DNA of 64,000 nucleotides from IMG/VR virus record IMGVR_UViG_3300025133_000043, positions 1-64,000 of that record; one strand, written 5' to 3'. This document shows, piece by piece, positions 28,790 through 43,445 of this stretch; position 1 is the stretch's first letter; each line of letters begins with the position of its first letter. The notes below the pieces were generated by a model. The model did no database searches and was not told where the DNA came from. It worked only from the letters and a program-made list of their open reading frames with translations. The position numbers and the translations under genes are program-made. The stretch is from a virus.

Positions 28790-31260
28790 TGACTACCCCG
28801 CGAAGGCTCAACCTCAGGTTGTTCATCGACGGTGTCGAGCTCCCCGTCGTTGGGGCGCGGTGTACCTTCGCCGACAACGCCGATGCGCAGGCCGACATCC
28901 AGGTCATCGCCACCGACCACATGTTCGACCTGCTGCCTCGGTCGATGATCCACCTGTTCTACTACGAGGACGCCGACTACACCTTCAAGGAGGGAAGTGA
29001 GTCAGGCTTCGGAATTGCAGACCCACGTCGCTGGAAGATGCTCTTCGCCGGGGAGCTGGCGTCAGTCCGTCTGCAGAAACAGGACGGTCAGAGGGCGGGG
29101 ATCCTGAGCTGTGTCGGCCCGATGAACTATCTGGACTTCATCCGCCAGCACTACCTGAACTTCCGCAACGGCGGGGTCGAGTTCTTCGAGAACGCCTTCA
29201 TGGGCGTCACCGCGGACAAGATCAAGAACTACGATGTGATCGGCAAGGGCGTGAGCTCCAACCTGTTCGTCTGGCTCAGTGCGTCCAAGGTCAAGGTCAC
29301 CGACAGCGACGGCAACACCGAGAGCTACAGCAACATCTACACTGGCACCCAGCGTGTCCTGCGTGAGATGTTCTTCGCCTCCAGCGTCTTCTACGCCCAG
29401 GCCTTCAACCGCTGGAGGATCGGGGACCTGATCGTGGGCATCCCGGAGGACAAGACCGCCGCCAAGCTGATGAAGCTGGACTTCTTCCAGAAGTTCATCA
29501 AGAACCAGGTCGGCGGCGGTGGTGGGATGGTGACCGCCCGTCAGATGATCAACACCATGCTGGGGACGGTCATGCACTCCATGACCACCATGCCTTGTCC
29601 CTGGCTCGATCCCGGCGGCACGGCCCTGGGGCTCGACATCCAGCAGGCCGCGCCCGAACTCGCCAAGCAGACGGTATCTGATCAACCCTGGGAAGGTGCC
29701 AGCCTGAACTACGTGGTGGTCAAGCCGGACACCTGGTTCCTGGCGCCGCCGGCCTGCAACATCGTCTTCCCGCACCAGTACAACTCGCTGGCCTACCAGA
29801 GGAGCTACTTGGCGGAGCCCACTCGTCTGATGCTCCGCACGAGCCTGTTCTTCACGGGCCGATCCAAGTGGCTCACAGAGCGCTTCTACGCCCCGGACTT
29901 CTCTGAGGTCGCAGAGGTCATGTACCGGGAGGGTGGGCACCTCGACCGCATGGCTGAGATCCTCATGCCTCACGAGGAGTTCGTCGGCCTCAACCCCATC
30001 TTCACCTGGGAGTCCGATCTCGGGGCCTACGTCCAGAAGGGCGGCCGTAGGGAGTACCTCTCCAAGCTCTGCGACTACCTGTTCTGGAAGTACCGGTTCA
30101 GCACTCGATCCACCAACGTCTCCGGACCCTTCAACCCCAACCTGGTCCCCGGCTACCCAGGTCTGGTGATGGACAGGGTCGGCATCCCCGGACTGATCAC
30201 CCGCCACGTCATGGGCAACGTCCAGACGGTGGTGCACTCCATCGATCAGAACGGAGGCTGGACCCACTTCACGATGGTGGGTTGCTACCAGCACGACGAG
30301 GCTGCCGACTTCGACAACGAAGGGAGATCCGTCTACGAGGTCACCCGCCGCGGGACAGACGGGTTCCTGGACGACCGCTATGACTGGGAGCGGATTGGGG
30401 AGGAGGTCTACCAGACCGTCTTCGGGTGCGGATCTCTGTTTGACGTCATCGCCGGCGTCAACGAGGGCGATCTGGCTGACCTGGTAAGCGGGGCATCCGA
30501 AGGTGTGGCGCAGGCCTTCGAGCCCATCATCACCAGGAGGAAGGTCAAGAAGACCCGCAAGGCGACCCGGAAGGAGGAGATCTTGCTCTTTGAGACCGAC
30601 ATTGCCACAGGGGACACAGAAAGTATCCCCACCGGCGAGTTCAAGGACGTTGAATTCGATGAGTCTTACTGGGGCTATGAGGAGGTCACGAGCTACGACT
30701 CGAAGGCCCTAGTGAGGTCGGTCGCCTACCTCCAGCTGCTCTACCAGACGATCCTCCAGAACGAAGGGAACCTCCAGGCGTTCACGCAGTCGATCACCCA
30801 GCGTCCTAAGGCCGACATGGCTCAGACCGTGGGCTTGGCTACGGCCAGTTCTTGGCGGAGCTTCGGGGAAGGCGAAGCACTGGACGAGATCGAAAGCACC
30901 ATCCAGGCCAAGGTCCTGGCAGACTACGGAACGGATCACGGCTTCTTCTCAGCAGCTGTCGATCCGAGCAGCCCTGTCGATGACAGCTACACATCGACCA
31001 GGTCCGTGCAGCGGAGGGTCGTGGACGTTCCTGAGCACGAAGAGACCATCTACGAGACGAACATCGCGAGTTACGACGACGACGGCTCCCTCCCGGAATC
31101 CGTCCCGATCGGGAAGAAGACGGTGGAGGCCACCTACAAGACGCTCCAGGTGGAGCAGAGTGAGGAGACCAACTACGGACTCCGTGATCTGCTTCAGAGG
31201 CGACAGGCTGCTACCTTGGCCTACGCCAAGAGCCTCCTGTACCAAGGACTTCGAGGATGA
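28789..31260 (+). CDS. Putative baseplate hub protein, 823 aa
   Basis: The N-terminal region (LRLFIDGVELPVVGARCTFA, then ADIQVIATDHMFDLLPRSMI and MLFAGELASVRLQKQDGQRA) has the shape of gp27/VgrG-like hub domains, which begin with a definition of rotated local coordinates and a path definition. The middle is globular and Trp/Tyr-rich. The C-terminal 250 residues are charged and may be a linker or second domain. ATGA overlap with the helicase gene. Confidence 0.55.
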   Translation: MTTPRRLNLRLFIDGVELPVVGARCTFADNADAQADIQVIATDHMFDLLPRSMIHLFYYEDADYTFKEGSESGFGIADPRRWKMLFAGELASVRLQKQDGQRAGILSCVGPMNYLDFIRQHYLNFRNGGVEFFENAFMGVTADKIKNYDVIGKGVSSNLFVWLSASKVKVTDSDGNTESYSNIYTGTQRVLREMFFASSVFYAQAFNRWRIGDLIVGIPEDKTAAKLMKLDFFQKFIKNQVGGGGGMVTARQMINTMLGTVMHSMTTMPCPWLDPGGTALGLDIQQAAPELAKQTVSDQPWEGASLNYVVVKPDTWFLAPPACNIVFPHQYNSLAYQRSYLAEPTRLMLRTSLFFTGRSKWLTERFYAPDFSEVAEVMYREGGHLDRMAEILMPHEEFVGLNPIFTWESDLGAYVQKGGRREYLSKLCDYLFWKYRFSTRSTNVSGPFNPNLVPGYPGLVMDRVGIPGLITRHVMGNVQTVVHSIDQNGGWTHFTMVGCYQHDEAADFDNEGRSVYEVTRRGTDGFLDDRYDWERIGEEVYQTVFGCGSLFDVIAGVNEGDLADLVSGASEGVAQAFEPIITRRKVKKTRKATRKEEILLFETDIATGDTESIPTGEFKDVEFDESYWGYEEVTSYDSKALVRSVAYLQLLYQTILQNEGNLQAFTQSITQRPKADMAQTVGLATASSWRSFGEGEALDEIESTIQAKVLADYGTDHGFFSAAVDPSSPVDDSYTSTRSVQRRVVDVPEHEETIYETNIASYDDDGSLPESVPIGKKTVEATYKTLQVEQSEETNYGLRDLLQRRQAATLAYAKSLLYQGLRG

Positions 31261-33425
31261 GCACCCAGCGCTGGTTCCAGGCACTCCGCGCTGACGAGGC
31301 TCTCGTCGGGATGGAGAAGATCGCCAAGGACAGCTCTGTTCCGCTGATCTCCGTGGATGGAGGTAAGGCGGAGAAGCAGATCCTGGATGCCATCGAACAG
31401 GTGGTCAACCCAGGCTGGACGCACCCTCAGGTGGCGGTGTCCGCGAAGGAGATCGGGGACCTCAAGGAGCGTGGGTTCAAGAAGACTCGCATGGCGATCC
31501 CACTGCCTGGCGAGCGGTTGTTCACCCCCACCTGGCGGAAGGGGAAGCTGCACGCCCACCGGGTCGGGAAGCACTACCTGTTCCACAAGGACGCCGTCGC
31601 CCCGACGAGCCTCAAGAGGGTCATCAAGCACAACTTCCACGATGTGCCTCCCGCTGTGCGGGCGAGGATCCGCAAGTCCGACATGCGCTTCAAGCTGGTC
31701 CCTCCGGACCAGCTCAGGAAGGTGGCAGCGTCGAACGTCGCCCTCGCCTCCTTCCAGGTCGAGTTCCAGAAGATCGCAGAGTCAGGAGGCCACTGGCGCC
31801 GGCTCCCGGCCGGTCAGAAGGGACACGACCAGTTCGGCAACGAACAGGCCGGACGTACCTGGGTCACGAAGAACCGGCTCAAGGGCTTCGTCAAGCTCAA
31901 GGCCCACCAGGCGGACTTCGCCAAGAAGGTGCTGAAGGATCCGACCTCTGGCCACATCGCCGCCCATGGCACGGGCACCGGCAAGACGGTCTCGGCCATT
32001 GCCACCTTCGAGAAGCTCAAGGGTCAGGGCAAGGCCAAGCGAGCCCTGGTCATCGCCCCGGCAGGGCTGCGCAAGAACTTCCACGACAGCGTCGGCAAGT
32101 TCACCGGATCCAAGAGCGTGATGCTCACCAACGCCAACCAGAAGGTCAGCCAGGACACCGAGTACGTCGTGGTGTCCTACTCAGCCTTCCGACGGAACCC
32201 CCAGGCCTTCATCGACGCCTACAAGCCCGACACGCTCATCGCGGACGAGTTCCACCGGGCGGGCAACCCGGACAGCTCCACCCACAAGGCCATCGCCTAC
32301 GCACGGACCAGGGTGCCCAACGTGATGGGCCTGACGGCCTCGATCGCCCAGAACGACTCTTCCGACGCCGTCCCCCTGGTCAACCTGGTCACAGGCGGAA
32401 AGGCTCCGATCAAGACCAAGAGGCAGTTCCACCGCCAGCACACTCAGAGGGTGCAGACCGCCCAGCGAGGCGTCTTCGGTGGCAAGGTCATGGAGAAGCG
32501 GCTCAAGAACAAGGAGCAGCTCTACAACCGGATCGGCGGCTCCATCCACTACATCGAGGATCTGAACGCCACCGAGAAGCCGCCCAAGCACGTCAAGGAC
32601 GTGGCGGTGCCCATGAGCTCGGAGCAGCTCCGGGCCTACAAGATGGCCATGAAGGGCGTGGACCCGGCTCTGCGCCGGAAGATCAGCCTGGGGATCATGC
32701 TCAACAAGCGGGAGGAGATGAACGCCTTCACCCGCCTGCAGCGTGCCCAGCAGATCTCGAACTCCATGCACCTGGTCAACCGGAAGCTCACCCCGGCCCA
32801 GTCCGCTGAGCGGACTCCGAAGATCAAGCGGATCATGGACGACGTGCAGAAGCACCTCAAGACCACCTCGGACGGGAAGGTGATCATCTACACCAACCTG
32901 GTGAAGGGTGGGGTCGACGTCATCAGCGCTGGACTGACGGCCCGAGGCATCGAGCACGGGGTCTTCGCTGGCAAGTCCATGAAGGGCATGACCGAGGAGC
33001 GGCGTCAGCAGGACGTGGAGGACTACAAGGCCGGGAAGAAGAAGGTGATCATCATCACCGGGGCTGGGGCCGAGGGCCTCTCCCTGGGCAACACGACGAT
33101 GGTGGCGCTGGCTGATCCGCACTACAACCCCGAGCGCATGAACCAGGCCGCGGCCCGCGGCATCAGGGCCGGCGGGCAGAGCCATCGGCCCCTGGACAAG
33201 CGCGGCGTGATCGTCAACCGCTACGTCACGGCCGTGCCCAAGAACTTCTGGCAGACGATCACGTTCCAGAAGGCGGAGCGCAGCGTGGGTCAGTACGCCT
33301 ACATGACTGCGGATCGGAAGTCGAGGAACACGAGGGAGCTCCGGGATGTGCTACAGCAGAGGCATACCCACGAGCAGAAGAAGCGGGACTCCCGCGTGTA
33401 CCGCTGGTTCGGAGGAGGTCCGTGA
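31257..33425 (+). CDS. SNF2/SF2-type helicase in the virion gene cluster
   Basis: A 722-aa protein. Residues 1-160 form an accessory region with MEKIA at 19-23. The ATPase core has motif I GTGTGKT (238-244), motif II DEFH (330-333), and a C-terminal RecA-like domain with IIYTNLVKGGVD, GAGAEGLSL and the arginine-rich QAAARGIRAGGQSHRP. A second KIA motif (FQVEFQKIA, 166-174) lies at the border, suggesting two once-separate proteins. DNA translocation or remodelling activity is expected. The position among virion genes is odd for a replication helicase and suggests packaging in the particle. Confidence 0.88.
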   Translation: MSTQRWFQALRADEALVGMEKIAKDSSVPLISVDGGKAEKQILDAIEQVVNPGWTHPQVAVSAKEIGDLKERGFKKTRMAIPLPGERLFTPTWRKGKLHAHRVGKHYLFHKDAVAPTSLKRVIKHNFHDVPPAVRARIRKSDMRFKLVPPDQLRKVAASNVALASFQVEFQKIAESGGHWRRLPAGQKGHDQFGNEQAGRTWVTKNRLKGFVKLKAHQADFAKKVLKDPTSGHIAAHGTGTGKTVSAIATFEKLKGQGKAKRALVIAPAGLRKNFHDSVGKFTGSKSVMLTNANQKVSQDTEYVVVSYSAFRRNPQAFIDAYKPDTLIADEFHRAGNPDSSTHKAIAYARTRVPNVMGLTASIAQNDSSDAVPLVNLVTGGKAPIKTKRQFHRQHTQRVQTAQRGVFGGKVMEKRLKNKEQLYNRIGGSIHYIEDLNATEKPPKHVKDVAVPMSSEQLRAYKMAMKGVDPALRRKISLGIMLNKREEMNAFTRLQRAQQISNSMHLVNRKLTPAQSAERTPKIKRIMDDVQKHLKTTSDGKVIIYTNLVKGGVDVISAGLTARGIEHGVFAGKSMKGMTEERRQQDVEDYKAGKKKVIIITGAGAEGLSLGNTTMVALADPHYNPERMNQAAARGIRAGGQSHRPLDKRGVIVNRYVTAVPKNFWQTITFQKAERSVGQYAYMTADRKSRNTRELRDVLQQRHTHEQKKRDSRVYRWFGGGP

Positions 33426-34687
33426 TGTCTGAGATGATCGAGCTCGCCATGCTGCAGGAGATGGACGAGATCATCAAGACGGCAGGGTACGCGAAGGACT
33501 TCGCGGCCGGCATCGATCCCTTTGGGGCCTACACCAGCCGCTACGGGCAGGAGGCTCAGCGGAAGGGGCTCAGCAGGAAGACGCATCGGAAGAAGCAGAT
33601 GGCAGGTGTTGCCGGTGGTGTTGTCGGTGGGGCTGTCGTCGTTCCTTCCGCCATTCACGGGCTGATCGGAGCAGGGAAGGGGTTGGCGAGCGGTGGCGGC
33701 GTCCGAGGCATGGCTCGCGGAGCTGTATCGGGGGCCGTTCGTGGGGCGAAATACCCCTTGGAGTCTGTCTACCGAGGGACGAAGGCTGTCAAGACTCTGA
33801 ACCGTGCAGCCAAGACCACTGGCGGGGTCAGCCTGACCAAGGCCCAGAAGAAGAACCTCCGCTACATGTCTGACAACGCCAGTGTCGACGCGGCACGTGA
33901 CCAAGCCGAGAAGGCCCTGAAGGCCGGCAGTCCTCTCAGGACGTCAAGCTCCAACAGGATCTCCCAAGATCAAGCCAAGCAGGTTCTACCTGGTGCCAGG
34001 AAGGAGCTGGCGGGCGGGTACGCACAGTTGGGGCTGGGTGGAGCCATCGGTGCGGGAGGTGCTCACGTCCAGTACCAGAAGGGTCGGGATGCTGAGAAGG
34101 AGTTCCAGTCTCGACTGAAGAAGGGGAAGTCCAAGGCCGCGTCTTCCCGTCTCCCCGCTGACGACTCCGATGAGGGGACGATCCAGACGGAGGATCTCCT
34201 CAGCGAAGAAGGCCGGAAGAACTGCCTCGAGTGCGGAGCCGTCTGCCAGGAGGACGACAACCACTGCCGGAAGTGTGGGGCCAAGCAGATCATCACTCAG
34301 AAGGCACCCAAGTCCAAGAAGAACCGGATCAAGACGCCGGAGGAGAACGAGGACGAGGAGGAGGGCACCGGAGGCAAGAACTCAGCGGCCAGCGACATGG
34401 ACAAGGAGAGCGCCGTCAAGCAGATCATCCAAGGCATCAAGGCCCAGCCCATGAACGCCCTCCGAGCTGCAGGAGGGTTGAGTGTCCTGGGCGCGGGCAC
34501 CTACGGGGCAGTCAAGGTCAACAAGTGGATGAAGCCCAAGAAGCCGGTACCTCAGCAGCGAGGGATGGTCAGAACAGCAGCTGAGAAGCCCAGGAAGCCT
34601 CGGAAGCGGGGACTCAACCCGGTCCACCGGATCCGGAGCGCCAAGCGCCTCCGCCTGGTCAACGCCTTCCTGGGCAAGGAGAAGTGA
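33425..34687 (+). CDS. Zinc-ribbon protein with Gly-rich segments, 420 aa
   Basis: ATG 33425 follows GGAGGAGG; GTG 33422 is in frame. The N-terminus has LQEMDEIIKTAG (10-21), a variant of the KIA motif. A Gly/Val hydrophobic segment follows (MAGVAGGVVGGAVVVPSAIH). The middle holds a zinc ribbon (CLECGAVCQEDDNHCRKCGA, about 260-280), flanked by charged low-complexity sequence, and the C-terminus is strongly basic. Probably a virion-associated, membrane- or DNA-interacting protein; inference. Confidence 0.6.
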   Translation: MSEMIELAMLQEMDEIIKTAGYAKDFAAGIDPFGAYTSRYGQEAQRKGLSRKTHRKKQMAGVAGGVVGGAVVVPSAIHGLIGAGKGLASGGGVRGMARGAVSGAVRGAKYPLESVYRGTKAVKTLNRAAKTTGGVSLTKAQKKNLRYMSDNASVDAARDQAEKALKAGSPLRTSSSNRISQDQAKQVLPGARKELAGGYAQLGLGGAIGAGGAHVQYQKGRDAEKEFQSRLKKGKSKAASSRLPADDSDEGTIQTEDLLSEEGRKNCLECGAVCQEDDNHCRKCGAKQIITQKAPKSKKNRIKTPEENEDEEEGTGGKNSAASDMDKESAVKQIIQGIKAQPMNALRAAGGLSVLGAGTYGAVKVNKWMKPKKPVPQQRGMVRTAAEKPRKPRKRGLNPVHRIRSAKRLRLVNAFLGKEK

Positions 34688-34766
34688 AAGTGCTATGCTC
34701 CTCGGGCAACCTGGTCCGGACAGGGATCACCCCTGAAGGCCAAGACCCTACCGCAGGAGCACCCGC

Positions 34767-35429
34767 ATGAGCCTCGCCACCGGCAAGAACGCCCTCCAGA
34801 AGCTGTTCAACTGGACCCCCCGCAAGGGCTGGGGCTACGAGCTCAAGCTGATCCGCCAGAAGATCGTGAACGCCTTCCGTGAGCGGAGCGAGGTTCTCGA
34901 GGGCGGCGTGGTCACCGAGGGCTCCTCGATCGCGGCGGGCACCTTCAGCGCCGACATGACCGCCCTGCGCTGCATGCTGGGCGGGCGCCTGATGCAGACG
35001 ATCTCCGCTCTGACCAACACCGACCTCCTGGCCACCAGCGGCAGCGTGGGAGCAGCCATCTACGAGGACGGCACGGCCGCGACGGCCCTGTCGCTCAGCA
35101 CGGACGAGACCGCCTACTGCACCCTCATCGTGTGCAACAGCGATGGAGCCGGTGACGCGGACGAAGACGACGACGGCGCTGCCCTGCTCGTCCTGATCGT
35201 GAACGGCGACAGCACGGACTACGAGGACGAGACCTCGCACCTGTCGAGCACCGAGATCCAGGCGGCCCTGGAGGCCTCCGACTCCGTGCACGATGGCGTC
35301 ACCGCCTGGGCCCACGTCTGCTCGTTCATCATCGACGAGAACTCGGCCTCCCCGCACATGGAGAGCGTCGCCGCCGGCGCGGACAACGTCGCCCTGATGA
35401 ACCGGAACAACGTCGTTTCGGAGGCCTGA
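34767..35429 (+). CDS. Putative virion structural protein, 220 aa
   Basis: Preceded by a 79-bp gap and a clear GCAGGAG ribosome site, so it may have its own promoter and high expression. It has MSLATGKNALQKLFNWTPRK at the N-terminus, then beta/Thr/Ser/Ala-rich sequence with an acidic loop (GDADEDDDGA). It lacks the KIA motif of its neighbours. It might decorate the particle, but no family is recognised. Confidence 0.5.
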   Translation: MSLATGKNALQKLFNWTPRKGWGYELKLIRQKIVNAFRERSEVLEGGVVTEGSSIAAGTFSADMTALRCMLGGRLMQTISALTNTDLLATSGSVGAAIYEDGTAATALSLSTDETAYCTLIVCNSDGAGDADEDDDGAALLVLIVNGDSTDYEDETSHLSSTEIQAALEASDSVHDGVTAWAHVCSFIIDENSASPHMESVAAGADNVALMNRNNVVSEA

Positions 35430-35456
35430 TCTCGCCTCCTCCCAGGAGGTAGGGAC

Positions 35457-37292
35457 ATGGACCTGGAGCGACTGGCCTTCTCCTACGAGCTCTGCAAGAT
35501 CGCTCAGGAGAAGTCGAAGAAGCGGAACTACGGGGCGCAGATGCTTGCTGCGGCCCCCGTGGCCGTCGCTACGTCTGCGGCTGACTTCCCGAAGGGGTGG
35601 GTCGACAAGAAGGTCGAGGTCGCGGTCTCCAAGGGCCTGAAGCCTGCGGTCAAGGCCAAGGCATGGAAGTCCGGCTTCGGCAGGGCCTCGGGACGCCTCG
35701 GTGCGTCCGTCCTCACCACGCCTCTGTTCTACTCGGGGATCAAGGACCTCAAGGAAGGGCGTCAGAGGGAAGGGACAGCCAAGGTCCTCGCCGCGGGAGG
35801 GGCCTACTCCGGCATCAAGGGCGGGCTCGAAGCCGGGATCAAGAACCGAGGTCGGGGGCTCACCTCCACTCAGATCAAGGACCTCGCCAAGAAGATCGGA
35901 GGGACTCGAGGCATCATCGGCCTGGGGTCCGCAGCCATCACCGCCAGATCCATCGCCAAGGCACAGAAGAAGGGCAAGAAGCTCTCTTGGAAGGACCGGG
36001 TAGCAGTGCCGGCCTTGATCGGAGCAGGGATCGGAGCCCCCAAGGGAGCCATCGAGAAGGTCGTCGAGGACGGGGCCAAGAAGACCCTGAAGTCGTTGAA
36101 GGGGCCCAACGCCGGGAAGGCTTTGAGGGGGATCGGTGGCGCCGCTGCCGGACGTGCCGCTGCTGGAGTGATCGGCGCGGTCGCCATCTCCGAGGCAGCT
36201 CGGATGATGACCAAGAAGTCCTCGGAGTACCAGCCTCAACCTCAGCTGACTGCCGCATCCTCTGCCGGGCAGCTCTACGCGAGCACCCGATCCCAGGCGC
36301 GGGGCGTGTCTGACCAGGGGCTTCAGAGCTTCCTCAAGCAACGGCCGGATCCGGAGAGGACCCCCTCTCGACGGGCCGTGACCTACGCGGTCAACGACGA
36401 GCTCAGGACACGAGGCCTGCCGGTGCCCAGGGAGCAAGTGCGGCACCAGACCCATCCTCCGATGATGAAGGGCACCTCCATCGCCCACACGGCTGCAGCT
36501 GCAGCCGTGATCGCAGCCCCTTCCCTGGTCTGGGAGCTGGGCATCAGTCCGATGAAGGCCAAGGAAAAGGACCTGGTCCTCCAGGATGCCTTGGATCAGA
36601 TGTCTGCCGATCGTGGCCTGGAGAGGATCAACGCCGGCTCGTCCGGAGACAGCATCCACTTCGGCAAGAAGCCCTCGGCCTACTACCGAGGCTTCGACCC
36701 CTCAGACCTGTCTGGAGAGGCCGCTGAGCTGCTGTCCACCCACAGCGAGGCCAGTCCGGAGGCGCAGGCCAAGGCCAGAGCCCTGGCGAAGAAGATCAAG
36801 GGAGGGAAGGTCAAGGGCGTCGTGTCCGCCTCCAGGGCCTCCGACCTGGCCCACGAGCTTGGGCATGCGACTGCCGGGGAGCTCCGCCGCAAGACCATCG
36901 CGTCCCCCGCCGCCCGGAAGGCCGGGGAGATCGCACGCATCCCTGCTGTGGTGATTCCCCTGATCGTCCTGGACAGCGCCTCGGATCGATCCTTCCACAC
37001 CAAGGAGGAGATCGAAGCCAAGGCGAAGTTCGCGGAGCGCATCGGAGGGGTCTCCCTACTGCTTGGAGCTCCCCTGCTGGCGGAAGAAGCGACTGCAACG
37101 GCCAAGGGCCTGCAGTACATGAAGCGGATGGGAGCGAGCAACCGACAGCTCGGGAGGGCCGCAGCTCGCCTCCTGGCGGCAGGGTCGACATACGCTGCAC
37201 CTTTCGCTACAGGTGCCCTCGCGGCTAAGATCCTTCGATCGAGGCCTACCCGCGAGAAGGGTACGCCCCCATCGGATAGGATGAGATCATGA
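35457..37292 (+). CDS. Membrane-type metallopeptidase (HELGH), 611 aa
   Basis: The N-terminus carries FSYELCKIA (8-16). Residues 30-250 are Gly/Ala-rich and basic, with several hydrophobic stretches. The C-terminal domain has the zinc motif HELGH (466-470, LAHELGHATAGEL), hydrophobic segments (IPAVVIPLIVLDSA, GGVSLLLGAPLLA), and a likely third ligand in LLAEEATATAKGLQ (about 540-552), the layout of integral-membrane M48/YugP-like peptidases. It may act on the host envelope at entry or on virion proteins. AGGAGG precedes the start. Confidence 0.7.
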   Translation: MDLERLAFSYELCKIAQEKSKKRNYGAQMLAAAPVAVATSAADFPKGWVDKKVEVAVSKGLKPAVKAKAWKSGFGRASGRLGASVLTTPLFYSGIKDLKEGRQREGTAKVLAAGGAYSGIKGGLEAGIKNRGRGLTSTQIKDLAKKIGGTRGIIGLGSAAITARSIAKAQKKGKKLSWKDRVAVPALIGAGIGAPKGAIEKVVEDGAKKTLKSLKGPNAGKALRGIGGAAAGRAAAGVIGAVAISEAARMMTKKSSEYQPQPQLTAASSAGQLYASTRSQARGVSDQGLQSFLKQRPDPERTPSRRAVTYAVNDELRTRGLPVPREQVRHQTHPPMMKGTSIAHTAAAAAVIAAPSLVWELGISPMKAKEKDLVLQDALDQMSADRGLERINAGSSGDSIHFGKKPSAYYRGFDPSDLSGEAAELLSTHSEASPEAQAKARALAKKIKGGKVKGVVSASRASDLAHELGHATAGELRRKTIASPAARKAGEIARIPAVVIPLIVLDSASDRSFHTKEEIEAKAKFAERIGGVSLLLGAPLLAEEATATAKGLQYMKRMGASNRQLGRAAARLLAAGSTYAAPFATGALAAKILRSRPTREKGTPPSDRMRS

Positions 37293-38434
37293 CCCACGCC
37301 TCAGCCCTGAACAAGATCGCGCAGGACCACCGAGGATCCGCAGCAGCCTTCCGCCGGGCTGCTGACGAGGCGTTGGCACGCGCAGGGGCCAACGAGTACC
37401 TCGCCGTGGCCTCCTTCAACGATGAGATCGAGAAGATCGCCTTCGTAGGTACTGTAGCCAGAGGACTCGGCCACCTGGCGCGAGGAGGCCGGGCCGTAGG
37501 TCGTGGAGCTGCCGCTGGACTCGAAGGCCTCGGAACTGGTGTGGTTGGTGCCGGACGCAGTGCTCAGAACCTCGGACGCAGTGCCCAGGCCGCGGCCGGC
37601 CGAGCCAAGCGAACCGTGCAGAACAAAGCTCGGGCTGTCGCTGACAACGCCTCTGTTCAGTTCCAGTCGGCCTACCGCGGGGTGAGCCCCAGCAAGATTC
37701 GGAAGCCCACCATCGACCTCACCGGTGCCAAGCCCGCTCCGCTGTCCAGTACCCCTCGCGCTCGTATCGAGATGCCGAAGCCTCCGTCCGGTCCCGGACC
37801 TGGAGCACGGGTCCAGGTTCCCGGGGGAGCCCAGGCCGGAGCGCGGAAGGGTCCGGCATCCGTTGCGCTCGCCGACCGATCACGTGGACCGGCATCGGCT
37901 GCCCTGAGTCAGCCCAAGGTCGTCGGCACTCCTACTGCCGCACGTCCTACTGCTCCCGCCCCTACGCAGGCTGCCACTCCCAAGAAGCCTCAGATGACCA
38001 AGAGTCAGCGGAAGGCAGATCGGAAGAAGAAGATCGAAGCCGAGCTCGCTCGCAGGCAGGCCGCAGCCAAGCCCGCGGCTGCCCCCACCACGGCAGCTCA
38101 GCCGACTCCGACCCCCACGGCTACTCAGCCGGTGGTTGGGGGAGCGCCGGCTCAGCCGGTCAACCCCGCTGCAACCGCAGGTCGTCCTGTTGCTCCGACA
38201 GGAGCACCGCCAGTCGCCGCAGAGCAGCCGTGGGCCCAGCGCCATTTCGGGTTGGGAGGAGCCCCCATCCAAGGTCCCATGCAGCAGGGTCAGTCCCGTA
38301 TGGGGATGTGGTGGGGAGGCCTCAATAGGCATCAGCGCACCAACGTCATGGGGGCGATGGGCGGTGCCGGCACCATGCTGGCAGGCGGCGCTGGTCTGGC
38401 AGCTGGCAACAAAACCACCGTCGTCTACAGGTAG
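37289..38434 (+). CDS. Ala/Pro-rich KIA-motif protein, 381 aa
   Basis: FNDEIEKIAF at 43-52, preceded by a weaker LNKIAQ at 7-12. A Gly/Ala/Arg-rich region follows, then a long Pro/Ala/Thr-rich linker (about 130-300) with a basic helix (KSQRKADRKKKIEAELARRQ). The C-terminus is a Gly/Ala hydrophobic hairpin (MGAMGGAGTMLAGGAGLAAG). Low complexity prevents a functional call. It resembles an extended, membrane-interacting internal virion protein. Confidence 0.6.
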   Translation: MTHASALNKIAQDHRGSAAAFRRAADEALARAGANEYLAVASFNDEIEKIAFVGTVARGLGHLARGGRAVGRGAAAGLEGLGTGVVGAGRSAQNLGRSAQAAAGRAKRTVQNKARAVADNASVQFQSAYRGVSPSKIRKPTIDLTGAKPAPLSSTPRARIEMPKPPSGPGPGARVQVPGGAQAGARKGPASVALADRSRGPASAALSQPKVVGTPTAARPTAPAPTQAATPKKPQMTKSQRKADRKKKIEAELARRQAAAKPAAAPTTAAQPTPTPTATQPVVGGAPAQPVNPAATAGRPVAPTGAPPVAAEQPWAQRHFGLGGAPIQGPMQQGQSRMGMWWGGLNRHQRTNVMGAMGGAGTMLAGGAGLAAGNKTTVVYR

Positions 38435-38440
38435 ATCAAC

Positions 38441-38983
38441 ATGAACAGCTTCGACACCCGCGGACGCGCCATCGCCCAGGCCTTCTGGACCGAGATGGAG
38501 AAGATCGCCTACAGCCGTCAGGCACATCGCCTGGTTTCCCAGGCGAACAGAGCCGCCAAGCAACACCAACGAGTAGGGAACGCGACTGGCTGGGGAGGGT
38601 GGAAGAAGTTCATGCCCTTCACGGATGATCACCGAATGGCTGACGCATCCAGGCTCAGAGCGAAGGCGGCCCGCAGCAAGGCCACGGCCCAGATCCAGGT
38701 GGAGAGGGATGCGGCCAAGAAGGCGATCCGTACCGGACGGGGGAACCAGGACTCCGCCCTCCGGATCCTGGAAGGGAAGCCCGCTCGGAAGTCGCCCACC
38801 CATGTGGATCTCCCCAACACCACCAACAAGAAGGGCGGATCCTCCACCCTCCGCCGTGTAGCCATCGGCACCGCCGCCGGCCTCGGCCTCACGGGAGCCG
38901 CTGTCGGTGGGAAGCGCGTCTACGACATCCAGAAGAACAAGAAGCAGGGCTACGGTGGCGGAAGCAGCGGTCCGGGGTACTGA
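38441..38983 (+). CDS. Basic KIA-motif protein with Gly-rich segment, 180 aa
   Basis: FWTEMEKIAYS at 15-25. The rest is basic and helical, with a Gly/Ala hydrophobic segment near 145-160 (RVAIGTAAGLGLTGAAVGG) and a Gly/Ser tail. No enzyme motif. A short member of the island's motif-bearing set. Confidence 0.62.
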   Translation: MNSFDTRGRAIAQAFWTEMEKIAYSRQAHRLVSQANRAAKQHQRVGNATGWGGWKKFMPFTDDHRMADASRLRAKAARSKATAQIQVERDAAKKAIRTGRGNQDSALRILEGKPARKSPTHVDLPNTTNKKGGSSTLRRVAIGTAAGLGLTGAAVGGKRVYDIQKNKKQGYGGGSSGPGY

Positions 38984-38986
38984 TCA

Positions 38987-39739
38987 ATGGCTCGCCGCAA
39001 TCCAGATGCGGAGAGGCAGCTCGAACTCTGGAAGACCTGGCAAGCAGATCCGACGGAGGCGAACCTCGAGCCTCTCCTGAAGGAGTTCGAGCCGGACGTC
39101 GACTGGAAGGTCAGCGAGTTCTCGAAGACCAAGAACTTCGTGGTCCCGGAGCAGGCGCTTCGATCCAAGGGTCGGATGCTGGCCCTCAAGGGTCTCCAGA
39201 CCTACGACCCGGACAACGAGAAGGGCGCCGGAGTGCGCACCTGGGTGAACTGGCAGCTGCGCAAGCTCCGGTCCTTCACCATCGAGCACCAGAACTTCGG
39301 GCGGATCCCCGAAGGCCGTGCCCTCCAGATCACCCCCTTCAAGGAAGTCAGGGCGGATCTGACCGAACAGCTCGGCCATCCTCCGGACGCTGTAACCCTG
39401 TCGGAGGCGCTGCAGGCCCACAACCCGAAGTACACCTGGAGCGTGGCCGAGGTGGGTCGCATGGAGACCGAGCTCCGCCAGGACCGGATCGCCTCCATGA
39501 CGCCGGAGCCTGATCAGCTTCCCTCGTTGTTCGAGAGCGAGGAGCGGGACATCCTGCGCTACATCTACCATGATCTGACCATGCAGGAGCGCGTGGTCTA
39601 CGAGTACACCCTGGGCGTCAACGGCAAGCCCAAGCTCCCGGCCAAGGATATCGCCAGGCGGATGAACGTCTCGGGCCCGAAGGTGAGCCGGCTCCGCAAG
39701 AGCATCGACGACAAGATGAAGAAGCGAGGTCTGACATGA
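38987..39739 (+). CDS. Sigma-70-family RNA polymerase sigma factor
   Basis: A 250-aa sigma-like protein. Region 2 lies at about 56-105 (ALKGLQTYDPDNEKGAGVRT, then WVNWQLRKLRSF), region 3-like sequence at 105-165 and region 4 at 186-247 with an HTH (KDIARRMNVSGPKVSRLRKS). Region 1.1 is absent, as in alternative and phage sigmas. It should redirect host RNA polymerase to phage late promoters. It sits inside the virion gene island and is coupled to small virion-type genes by ATGA. Confidence 0.85.
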   Translation: MARRNPDAERQLELWKTWQADPTEANLEPLLKEFEPDVDWKVSEFSKTKNFVVPEQALRSKGRMLALKGLQTYDPDNEKGAGVRTWVNWQLRKLRSFTIEHQNFGRIPEGRALQITPFKEVRADLTEQLGHPPDAVTLSEALQAHNPKYTWSVAEVGRMETELRQDRIASMTPEPDQLPSLFESEERDILRYIYHDLTMQERVVYEYTLGVNGKPKLPAKDIARRMNVSGPKVSRLRKSIDDKMKKRGLT

Positions 39740-39936
39740 GCGACGTGGCGACTCAGGCTCAGGCGGTCAAGGACGCGGTCAAGGAGGTCTTCGACGCCAA
39801 GTGCGCCGAGGTCGACTCACGGGTCGAGCAGCTCCAGCGCATCAAGACCGCGTCGACGGAGGCCAGCGAGAACACCACCCAGCAGGCCATAGACGAGGCC
39901 AACGACTACCTCGCCACGTTGGGAGTGGATGTCTGA
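39736..39936 (+). CDS. Small helical protein, 66 aa
   Basis: Helical, acidic protein (MSDVATQAQAVKDAVKEVFD) predicted to be a short coiled coil. Coupled to the sigma gene by ATGA, so it could be a partner of the sigma factor. No direct evidence. Confidence 0.55.
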   Translation: MSDVATQAQAVKDAVKEVFDAKCAEVDSRVEQLQRIKTASTEASENTTQQAIDEANDYLATLGVDV

Positions 39937-40088
39937 TGGATCAGATCAGCGGAAGCAGCGCAGGCGGAGGTTCAGCCCTCGACAGCTACCAGGACGGCGG
40001 AGGGGTCCTGCCCAAGCAGCCCTCGGCCAACCTCCTCACCCTCGTGGGCGACAAGAAGGATGCCTTCGCCGTCGTCAAGGCCGGTTGA
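39936..40088 (+). CDS. Small Gly/Ser-rich protein, 50 aa
   Basis: ATG 39936 in a TGATG overlap. The N-terminal half is Gly/Ser-rich (SGSSAGGGSALDSYQDGGG) and the C-terminal half short and mixed. Support comes from junction geometry and position. Confidence 0.5.
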   Translation: MDQISGSSAGGGSALDSYQDGGGVLPKQPSANLLTLVGDKKDAFAVVKAG

Positions 40089-40091
40089 TCC

Positions 40092-40922
40092 ATGCCGAAC
40101 ATCTACCAGGCCGTCAAGGGACGGCAGCTCCGCATCCCCATCATCGATTCGTCGGACACGACCGGCTTGGTGATCGGAGACTTCACCATCTCCGCCGCGG
40201 TTGCTGGCGCCCTGAGCTCGGACCCAGAGACAGACCTCTCGCTGACCCTGGCCGAAGTCGATGACTCGGATCTCCCCGGGTACTACGAGCTCGTCGTGAC
40301 CCCCTCGGAGGTTGGCCTGACCTACCTCCGCCTGGTGGACAACGACACCCACGAGATCCACCTGCAGGTCGCTCACGAGTCCCAGGACCTGATCGGGCAG
40401 ACCCTCTACGGCGCTGAGGGCACTCTGGAGATCACGGTGGAGGATGCTTCGGAGAACCCCATCGAGGGCGTCCTGGTCCGGCTCCTCACCAGCACCGGCT
40501 CCGGCCTGGTCGGCAAGGCGCTCACGGACTCGTCGGGCGAGGTCTCCTTCGACCTGCCCACCGGGAGCTACTACGCCCGCTTCTCCAAGAGCGGCTACGA
40601 CTTCTCCGAGGAGAACCCCACCAGCGTGGTCGTGCTGGCCTGGGAGAACGTCACGCCGGTCATCTCCGAGCTCCTCCCCAGCACCGCCTCCGAAGGCGAC
40701 TCTGTGGCGATCAAGGGCTCGTACTTCAACGGGGACAACCCCATCGTCACCATCGGTGGTGAGGAGGTCACGCCCGAGGCGGTCTCCGACGACGGCACGG
40801 TGCTCATCTTCGTCGTGCCCGAGGAGCTGGACTCACCGGCTACCGTTCGGGTAAAGAAGGATGATCCCGACAACGAGGGCGAGTACCTCACCTCCTCCAG
40901 CCTCTCCCTGACGATCAGCTGA
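40092..40922 (+). CDS. Virion protein with Cna-B-like and IPT/TIG-like domains
   Basis: 276 aa. The N-terminal about 100 residues form a beta domain. Residues about 110-190 resemble carboxypeptidase-regulatory/Cna-B domains (LEITVEDASENPIEGVLVRL, GEVSFDLPTGSYYARF). Residues about 196-276 resemble an IPT/TIG domain (VISELLPSTASEGDSVAIKG). Ig-like domains of this kind decorate phage heads and tails and may bind cell-surface sugars. Confidence 0.7.
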   Translation: MPNIYQAVKGRQLRIPIIDSSDTTGLVIGDFTISAAVAGALSSDPETDLSLTLAEVDDSDLPGYYELVVTPSEVGLTYLRLVDNDTHEIHLQVAHESQDLIGQTLYGAEGTLEITVEDASENPIEGVLVRLLTSTGSGLVGKALTDSSGEVSFDLPTGSYYARFSKSGYDFSEENPTSVVVLAWENVTPVISELLPSTASEGDSVAIKGSYFNGDNPIVTIGGEEVTPEAVSDDGTVLIFVVPEELDSPATVRVKKDDPDNEGEYLTSSSLSLTIS

Positions 40923-41719
40923 TGCCTCAGATCAAGACTGCCGCCATGACGCCTGCCAAGGCCAGAGCTCTGGAAGCTCTGGCCGGCCTGGTCGTGGGGG
41001 GCGGCGCTGGAGGCTTCCTCGCCACCAAGACCTTCCAGACGAAGGAGCCCCGCTACTGGCTCCAGAACGGTCAGATCTACGGCAGGGACCTCTCCAAGAG
41101 CGAGAAGCAGGACTTCCTCAAGCGCCTGGGCAAGGCAGCCGTCATGGGTGGATCTGGAGCCGCTGCGCTGAGTCTGGGGGCCTCCGCGATCCGACGCAAG
41201 CATCTCACCGCCAGGGACGCCAGACTCAGCCGAGAGGCCTTCCAGAGGATCTTCAAGCCCCTGGACATCGCCATCCGGAAGCAGAAGTCCAACGTCTCTG
41301 GCTCCGGGGCGAGGATCAAGCAGTTGCGGGAGGCCCAGGGGCAGGTCAAGGGCGTTGGCCGCTCCACAGAGCAGCTCCAGGTAGCGCACGACCTGGAGCA
41401 GACGCTGAAGGGCCACAGGGAGGCCGAGGCCGTCCTGGAGCGCCTGCGCAGCCAGAAGAAGTCCCACAGCTTCGACCTCTACCTGGACAGGGCGAGGAAG
41501 GCCCGGAAGCACGTCCCCTGGGGTGGGAAGGCGGCTCGCGACGTCCCCATCGGGGAGAAGCGCGTGGTGAAGGTCCCCTCGAGGATGACAGCAGAGGGTC
41601 AGATGTCCGAGGTCCTCGGGAAGGACAACGTGTCCTACAGCTTCACCCCAGACGGGAAGCGACACGTCAGCGGGCCTGGACAGGCCTACTGGACAGGCAA
41701 GGCCCGAGGAGGATCCTGA
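40922..41719 (+). CDS. Basic protein with Gly-rich N-terminal segment, 265 aa
   Basis: Begins MPQIKTAAMTPAKARALEAL, a possible degenerate form of the KIA motif, then a Gly-rich hydrophobic segment (LAGLVVGGGAGGFLATK). The rest is basic, helical and charged. Function is unknown; composition matches the other island proteins. Confidence 0.58.
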   Translation: MPQIKTAAMTPAKARALEALAGLVVGGGAGGFLATKTFQTKEPRYWLQNGQIYGRDLSKSEKQDFLKRLGKAAVMGGSGAAALSLGASAIRRKHLTARDARLSREAFQRIFKPLDIAIRKQKSNVSGSGARIKQLREAQGQVKGVGRSTEQLQVAHDLEQTLKGHREAEAVLERLRSQKKSHSFDLYLDRARKARKHVPWGGKAARDVPIGEKRVVKVPSRMTAEGQMSEVLGKDNVSYSFTPDGKRHVSGPGQAYWTGKARGGS

Positions 41720-42390
41720 TGGGGTACACGGTCACAGGCACAGCGATCTCCGGCAGCGGCGAACCCGACGCAGACATGTGTCGGGTGTCCGGCTACTTGA
41801 AGGACCTGCACGGCGACGCTCTGGTGAGCGAGAAGCTCACGGTGCGGAACATCCACATCCCGGCAGCGGTGAGCTCGAACACGCTGATCCTCAACGAGCA
41901 CCAGACCGCCAAGTCGGACGGCGACGGCTACGTCGAGTTCGACCTCTACCAGGGCGCTACGGTCAGGATCGAGATCCCAGGCAGGGAATCGGACCTGGTC
42001 CGAACCGTCGTGGTCCCAGAGGAGAGCTCCATCGACCTGGTGGCGCTCATCTTCCCCTACATCACCGAGATCGAGTTCGACGACGGCGATGACTATGAGG
42101 CCGAGGTCGAGGAGCAGTTCACCCTGGACATCACGACCACCCTTTCCAACGGCGAGGAGGCGGGGAGCTCCGTGCAGGGGGCCTTGGAGATTGAGATCAG
42201 CGACGAGACGGTGGTGGTGCAGGTGGCCAACCTGTCCTTCCGCGCCCTCAAGGCCGGGACCGTCACCATCGAGATCACCGAGGTCGACACCGACGAGGTC
42301 AACGAGTACCAGGAGCCTGATGGCGACGTGATCGAGAGGCTCCAGCACCCGACGATCACCCTCCCCACCATCACGGTCACGGTGTCCTGA
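41719..42390 (+). CDS. Virion protein with Big-2-like C-terminal domain, 223 aa
   Basis: The N-terminal domain (CRVSGYLKDLHGDALVSEKL, GYVEFDLYQGATVRIEIPG) is a beta domain like those in phage adhesins. The C-terminal half (FTLDITTTLSNGEE, VVVQVANLSFRALKAGTVTI) resembles bacterial Ig-like group 2 domains. Probable surface decoration or adhesion role. Confidence 0.6.
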   Translation: MGYTVTGTAISGSGEPDADMCRVSGYLKDLHGDALVSEKLTVRNIHIPAAVSSNTLILNEHQTAKSDGDGYVEFDLYQGATVRIEIPGRESDLVRTVVVPEESSIDLVALIFPYITEIEFDDGDDYEAEVEEQFTLDITTTLSNGEEAGSSVQGALEIEISDETVVVQVANLSFRALKAGTVTIEITEVDTDEVNEYQEPDGDVIERLQHPTITLPTITVTVS

Positions 42391-43445
42391 TGAACATCTC
42401 CACCACGTCAGCGACCTACTTCTGGGACGAGATCGAGAAGCTGGGAGCCTCTCGGAAGAGGCGGAAGTTCCCCTGGAGAGGGGTCGCCATCGGAGCCGCG
42501 GCGGGAACGGCTCTGGGCCTCAGTCGACTTCCGGGCACTCGGGCCAATCTCCGGGCCATGATCAAGGGAGTCGGCAAGGGAGGTTCTCGGAAGGTGGATG
42601 CAGCTCGACCCCTACCTCAAGGAGCGAAGGACGAGGCTGCCCGGATCTTGAAGGCGCTCAAGGACGCAGGAGTGGATCCGAAGAAGTCTCGGATCGCAGT
42701 CTCGGGTACCGGAGGTACGGGCAAGAGCACCACGGCCAAGGCCCTGGCGGAGCAAGCCGGTACGAGGGTCTTCCACTACGACAAGCCGAACATGACTGCG
42801 CAGCAGATCTCAACCCTCTCACGCAAGCAGGTCAAGCCCGGAGTCTACGAGCAGACCCACATGCTCGCCGAAGCCGATCCCGGTAGCTTCGACGTCTTCG
42901 TCCACATGAGGAAGGACCCGAAGGTGGTGAAGGCCCAGCTCATGGCCAGGAAGCGTGGGGCTTGGCAGGCAGACTTCTACCGGACGAAGAAGATCGATCA
43001 GGTCCTCTCCAAAGGCTTCAAGGAGCTCCCAGGAGAGGAGGTTCGAGCATCTCCGATCTCTTCTGTGAAGATCGCCCCGAAGGGCGGCTTCCCAGCTTCG
43101 AGAGGGTCGGAGAGGGCGTCCCGTCTGCAGCGTGAGGCCGCCGGCATCAAGGGAGACGGAGGCCGGCACGAGTACTTCAAGAAGGGCAAGCTGACGCTGG
43201 CCTTGATGATGCCTGGAGCTGGCATGGCTGTAGGAGCTGGGGTGGAGAAGCGGGGACCGGGCTCCGGACCCTCTCCGGCTCAGATCCACAGACTCGCCAA
43301 GTCCAAGGGGATCGAATCTGATAGCCATCTCCCCGGCTCCGGGGCGTTCATGTCGATGTCCGAGGATCTCACCGGAAAGGGCCACCTGGACCAGATGTCG
43401 CCGGCACAGAGGAGGCGCATCTACGGAGCGCTCATGCTGGCGTAG
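42390..43445 (+). CDS. P-loop NTPase/kinase-like protein with KIA motif, 351 aa
   Basis: FWDEIEKLGAS at 11-21, then a Gly/Ala hydrophobic segment (GVAIGAAAGTALGLSRLPG). The NTPase part starts with RIAVSGTGGTGKSTTAKAL (101-119, Walker A 106-114) followed by a HYDKPN segment, as in small-molecule or polynucleotide kinases. The Walker B is not certain. The C-terminal third is Gly/Ala-rich and basic. A nucleotide-binding enzyme with the island's N-terminal signal is notable. Substrate is unknown. Confidence 0.65.
   Translation: MNISTTSATYFWDEIEKLGASRKRRKFPWRGVAIGAAAGTALGLSRLPGTRANLRAMIKGVGKGGSRKVDAARPLPQGAKDEAARILKALKDAGVDPKKSRIAVSGTGGTGKSTTAKALAEQAGTRVFHYDKPNMTAQQISTLSRKQVKPGVYEQTHMLAEADPGSFDVFVHMRKDPKVVKAQLMARKRGAWQADFYRTKKIDQVLSKGFKELPGEEVRASPISSVKIAPKGGFPASRGSERASRLQREAAGIKGDGGRHEYFKKGKLTLALMMPGAGMAVGAGVEKRGPGSGPSPAQIHRLAKSKGIESDSHLPGSGAFMSMSEDLTGKGHLDQMSPAQRRRIYGALMLA

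Follow-up and report, generated by a model that had tools for sequence, protein, structure and literature searches.

The short peptide shared by a set of otherwise unrelated proteins of this virus is very probably a capsid-targeting propeptide that ends in a KxA (hydrophobic-x-K-x-A) cleavage site, following the plan of the T4 CTS with a different sequence and a different cleavage rule. On balance, we also lean toward the broader reading that a universal address, A-F-x-D-E-L-E-K-I-A, together with the KxA cut marks the packaged and injected proteins in a wide clade of large phages, most of them uncultured. In the proposed mechanism, the front of the tag (often A-F-x-D/x-E) would dock a new protein to a partner in the prohead core, and its end, [hydrophobic]-x-K-[I/L/V/T]-A/G, would be the cleavage site of a T4 gp21-like head protease. 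The cut would fall after the A of the tag and free the cargo inside the head on maturation, after which the cargo would be ejected with the DNA into the host. The same protease would also cut itself and the scaffold/core proteins (at many sites each) and would shorten the major capsid protein by an N-terminal propeptide of roughly 27 residues. The front (A-F-x-D-E) is not general in the sites of core proteins and is therefore probably the address, while the back matches these sites and is therefore probably the cut. The original prediction had proposed a targeting tag comparable to the T4 CTS, and this idea gains support from relatives, in which the motif goes together with head-core proteins and a head protease of the T4 gp21 type. 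It had overlooked that the C-terminal half of the tag is probably a protease site, that the KxA site is common to the scaffold proteins, the protease and the capsid protein, and that the tag is widespread.

The window analyzed here comprises bases 1-64000 of a virus record of 104,726 bases (64% GC), and coordinates above 64000 continue the same numbering. The genes for a baseplate wedge, a hub/lysozyme and a terminase identify a large tailed bacterial virus, and a portal-like protein (83030-84949) has its match in the protein annotated as portal in Salmonella phage Arash. The record breaks off in an incomplete gene (103903-104724) whose homologue in genome G003 lies before the head protease gene. 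It is thus a fragment in which the virus's own protease, scaffold and capsid genes are missing; when the protease was sought in the query itself, the record stopped one gene short of the expected place.

The strict motif (F-x-x-E-[ILM]-x-K-[IL]-[AG]) was compared with 1000 composition-preserving shuffles of the 110 called proteins. It has six matches among these proteins, all in the first 60 residues, where 0.012 are expected, a frequency far above what composition predicts. A seventh strict match, FGLELAKIA at 82244, escaped this count because the start of its gene was called too late. At the DNA level, the relaxed pattern matches nine times, always on the late (+) strand, and its reversal has no match on the query DNA. 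Every peptide listed in the original prediction was recovered in frame, in a coding ORF, at its position (Table 1). The motif marks late virion-cluster genes on one strand instead of genes scattered over the genome, as that prediction required. It is not limited to the cluster at 31-43 kb, and at least four more late proteins outside the window carry it. Of the seven listed copies, five lie within the first 25 residues and two do not.

Table 1. Tagged proteins and copies of the tag in the query record.
Feature	Position	Strand	Basis
SNF2-type helicase, tagged cargo, two tag-like copies	31257..33425	+	Pfam SNF2 3e-15, Helicase_C 4e-13
MEKIA, N-terminal tag end (KxA site), helicase residues 19-23	31311..31325	+	translation
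FQVEFQKIA, second helicase tag, residue 166, directly before the helicase domain	31752..31778	+	translation; loose motif match
Gly/Ala-rich protein with zinc-ribbon-like stretch, tagged cargo	33425..34687	+	Zn_ribbon_3 E 0.002, below Pfam cut-off
Variant tag LQEMDEIIKTAG	33452..33487	+	aligned near FSCELAKLA / FVTELVKLS of homologues
Large protein with HELGH zinc-peptidase signature, tagged cargo	35457..37292	+	sequence
Tag FSYELCKIA	35478..35504	+	strict motif
Low-complexity Ala/Pro/Gly protein, tagged cargo	37289..38434	+	sequence
Tag FNDEIEKIA, residue 43	37415..37441	+	strict motif
Small basic protein, tagged cargo	38441..38983	+	sequence
Tag FWTEMEKIA	38483..38509	+	strict motif
P-loop (AAA-like) protein, tagged cargo	42390..43445	+	Pfam AAA 8e-5
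Tag FWDEIEKLG	42420..42446	+	strict motif
Tagged protein beyond the window, MNPLLMHAFSDELEKIG	contig 80891-81187, copy at 80915		
Tagged protein beyond the window, MNPRLFLAFNDELTKIA	contig 81831-82223, copy at 81855		
Second HExxH protein, tagged, MDVLDYFGLELAKIA	contig 82226-83023, copy at 82244		
Tagged protein beyond the window, MSKLHAFASEMEKVA	contig 97069-97614, copy at 97087		

The helicase also matches the PHROG DNA helicase family (8e-56) and is one of several tagged helicases, since others occur in L043, L052 and L087. With its two tags it may have arisen by fusion of two tagged proteins, and the same origin is possible for the proteins with a tandem or internal tag in L056 and L105. 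The variant tag of the zinc-ribbon-like protein, also named in the original prediction, is real: homologues with 41-45% identity in two related phage groups read FSCELAKLA or FVTELVKLS at about the same N-terminal place, which explains the variant. Homologues in L008-L010 bear the tag, and EIIKTA within the variant fits the KxA site logo described below. The large protein with the HELGH signature gave no match in a Pfam search. Both it and its tagged paralogue (Table 1) combine an HExxH motif (HELGHAT and HEAGHAT, respectively) with a later E-E motif and a hydrophobic C-terminus. The low-complexity protein contains an extra LNKIA at residues 7-11.

A gene at 85211-91393 (L002:2711-8890) encodes an RNA polymerase of the multisubunit type whose beta and beta-prime parts are fused into a single chain of 2060 aa, with Rpb2 and Rpb1 domains and the signature NADFDGD; its homologue in Arash and Vibrio phage D69 is split over at least two CDS. 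This polymerase is likely a virion protein and has no tag, which speaks against the proposed role of the tag. A weak sigma-factor-like protein (38987-39739; phrog_351, E 0.0045) is encoded inside the tagged cluster and is a possible partner of the polymerase.

With the polymerase as query, relatives with 38-56% identity were found in IMG/VR. The positional counterpart of the 97069-97614 protein in G001 (47% GC) is tagged as well (MHLSIPTVEYFYDELEKIA), and another, different tagged protein precedes the portal there. Despite the difference in GC content (64% in the query), the tag has thus stayed at the same gene place while the rest has diverged. We searched IMG/VR for exact back-translations of F-x-D-E-[LF]-E-K-I-A, with the reversed peptide as control, and found 111 stretches with the tag and 10 with the reversed peptide. 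A random 15-mer occurs in 41 IMG/VR stretches, which puts the collection at about 22 Gb and the tag at about 5 per Gb; cellular genomes contain 60 matches in 257 Gb (about 0.2 per Gb). Among the viral motifs, 73 of 83 fall in the first 30 residues (median 9), and 61 still do so with the farthest start codon, compared to 11 of 52 motifs in cellular genomes by the farthest start. An alignment of 40 tagged ORFs has a mean column identity of 7% outside the tag; F, D, E, E, K, I and A do not vary, as the search itself had fixed these letters. Pfam assigns the tagged ORFs to SNF2/ResIII helicases, Nudix, GNAT, glyoxalase, NlpC/P60-C92 and zinc peptidase families. Dozens of uncultured relatives thus carry one label, with the consensus A-F-x-D-E-L-E-K-I-A, on unrelated proteins. 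Peptide and keyword searches of the open literature, outside of which most subscription papers fall, returned nothing relevant to the motif.

The end of the tag recurs in head and core proteins. Three query proteins (79767-80888, 95058-97058 and 103043-103903) contain 23 hydrophobic-x-K-x-A sites vs 2.5 expected, and the site is enriched 5-10 fold in their G001 and G003 homologues and in head-cluster proteins of Arash and D69. KxA richness guided the choice of the three query proteins and of some homologues, but not that of the 939 non-redundant ORFs beside the protease gene at 80 IMG/VR loci, in which 1453 sites were counted vs 409 expected (about 3.5 fold). In the latter set, the control patterns lie at 0.67-1.23. 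In the former, control patterns that were read backwards, had K exchanged for R, E, Q or D, or had A exchanged for G, S, L or E mostly gave ratios of about 1; the largest exceptions reach about 2-2.5 fold and mostly rest on few counts. The site logo reads E..[MFLI][EV]K[TLIQV]A followed by [SAE]A, in agreement with the end of the tag.

In Arash, 40 KxA sites vs 6.0 expected are found in the head-cluster set and 11 vs 12.6 in the tail proteins; many of the CDS carry the label ‘structural protein’, the basis of which is absent from the record. The exact tag (F-x-x-E) was not found in the cultured phages Arash and D69, although KxA sites are present in both. Three Arash proteins labeled as structural and encoded in the tRNA region (gp95c, gp97c and gp100c; L016) begin with short KxA segments of another kind (MSLHKLA, MEKQAS), which may be a separate targeting tag of that lineage. 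In Bacillus phage G (L323), gp19, a distant homologue of the protease, has seven KxA sites vs 0.8 expected, gp20 starts with LKKTA and gp23 with YKIA. Judged from these sequences, the tag may have arisen later than the KxA rule.

The KxA-rich genes surround the protease gene in Arash, D69 and G003. In Arash and D69, this gene has a match to the PHROG family ‘head maturation protease’ (phrog_18299, 2e-6 and 7e-7), and it lies upstream of scaffold-like and capsid genes in these three genomes and in other neighborhoods. An AlphaFold model of a relative's protease is of medium quality (mean pLDDT 65). Its best PDB match by Foldseek is T4 gp21 (5jbl) with a modest score (E 0.017, probability 0.93), with the next unrelated match at 0.16. 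H102, H103 and S159 are invariant in 30 protease sequences, and the conserved His and Ser are predicted catalytic candidates. Based on the sequence and fold matches, the conserved His/Ser and the gene order, the protease is classed as a T4 gp21-like head maturation protease. Its profile matches 39 of 48 tagged contigs with a length of 55 kb or more and none of 24 background contigs (Fisher p=5e-12; p=2e-7 when restricted to the 12 background contigs above 50 kb), with the nine tagged contigs lacking a match perhaps being fragments. On two large contigs found with the reversed peptide, the protease is likewise encoded among KxA-rich neighbors, and it is thus broader than the tag.

The site is also present in the protease itself, in which K29 and A31 are invariant near the N-terminus (30 sequences), and in the major capsid protein, in which K25 and A27 are invariant (24 sequences), just ahead of a conserved DRLRE..[FY].R arm. 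The far-diverged capsid proteins of Arash and D69 read GLVKEA-GAAMS and GLTKEA-GAAMS, respectively, while that of the L236 neighborhood has QAQLT there instead. The capsid protein of phage G has no KxA site, and its structure (6wkk, E 0.035) was the only match in a search for a solved capsid structure of a relative that starts after KxA.

These positions bear on a reading in which the tag and the KxA sites serve only to dock proteins to a hub, the scaffold or the capsid, and are left uncut. A short motif repeated in scaffold-like proteins fits docking too, and the front half of the tag resembles a docking helix. Docking accounts poorly for a logo that continues beyond the A (S/A at +1 and A at +2, with I, K, Y and R depleted) and for a K and an A fixed near the N-terminus of the protease and at the junction before the conserved arm of the capsid protein, and we consider it improbable, about one chance in eight.

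The tag might also be an amphipathic helix that targets a membrane or a cell pole, with the proteins acting at the host membrane. Such a helix would indeed be amphipathic, and Gly/Ala-rich stretches are common (a GxxxG-type zipper in 30 of 69 tagged ORFs), but a classical transmembrane hydropathy score is reached by only 2 of the 69, soluble enzymes are among the cargo, and both the identity of the KxA site with that in head-core proteins and the linkage to the head protease are left unexplained. Membrane targeting is therefore very unlikely, and a transmembrane anchor finds little support in the same hydropathy scores. Least probable of all is an artefact of composition or a functionless N-terminal piece inherited through gene duplication, for although close paralogues exist (adjacent tagged genes in L040/L074; the two metallopeptidases of the query), the shuffles (6 vs 0.012) and the reversed peptide (111 vs 10) reject chance and the tag stays in place across phages of 64% and 47% GC while the rest diverges. 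A conserved DNA or RNA element was rejected as well, because the codons vary and the motif persists at both GC contents.

Proteins that are carried in a phage head and injected are normally known only through proteomics of cultured phages. If the proposed propeptide with its KxA cut is correct, the packaged proteome of a large group of uncultured phages would become predictable from sequence, and each predicted protein could be cloned and tested. On the broader reading, metagenomes would yield a list of hundreds of injected proteins not known so far, among them helicases, Nudix and GNAT proteins and metallopeptidases. The tag would also provide a new means of directing proteins into phage heads, and KxA would be a further head-protease rule beside L/I-x-E and S/A-x-E.

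Among known systems, herpesvirus assemblin cuts after [V/L/I]-x-A before Ser. It shares with the KxA site a small P1 Ala, a preference for Ser after the bond and a distantly related protease fold; compared by description only, the Lys at P3 is specific to the KxA site. According to the consulted parts of two articles (PMC9026906, PMC10052503), the head proteases of phiKZ (gp175) and SPN3US (gp245) likewise trim many internal head proteins at a short, simple motif, in large phages with enzymes and an RNA polymerase in the virion. Their motif is S/A-x-E or A-x-E, with AxE used in SPN3US (PMC10052503), and these parts describe no common short targeting tag for either phage (PMC9026906, PMC10052503). 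The closest parallel is the T4 CTS of IPI, IPII, IPIII and Alt, as described in PMC9026906: a short N-terminal propeptide common to unrelated proteins and processed by gp21, with an aromatic/acidic front, a protease motif at its end, late head genes and a gp21-fold protease. Ten N-terminal residues are enough for IPIII to be packaged; of these, positions 4 and 7 act mainly in targeting and positions 8 and 10 in processing by gp21 at L/I-x-E (PMC9026906). The tags described here have another sequence and a cut motif of hydrophobic-x-K-x-A instead of the L/I-x-E of T4 (PMC9026906). They end in K-[IL]-[AG], the L/I-x-E ending being absent, and are therefore CTS-like in their working without being classed as CTS. 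Compared to T4, the cargo set is also far wider and is spread over a large group of uncultured phages.
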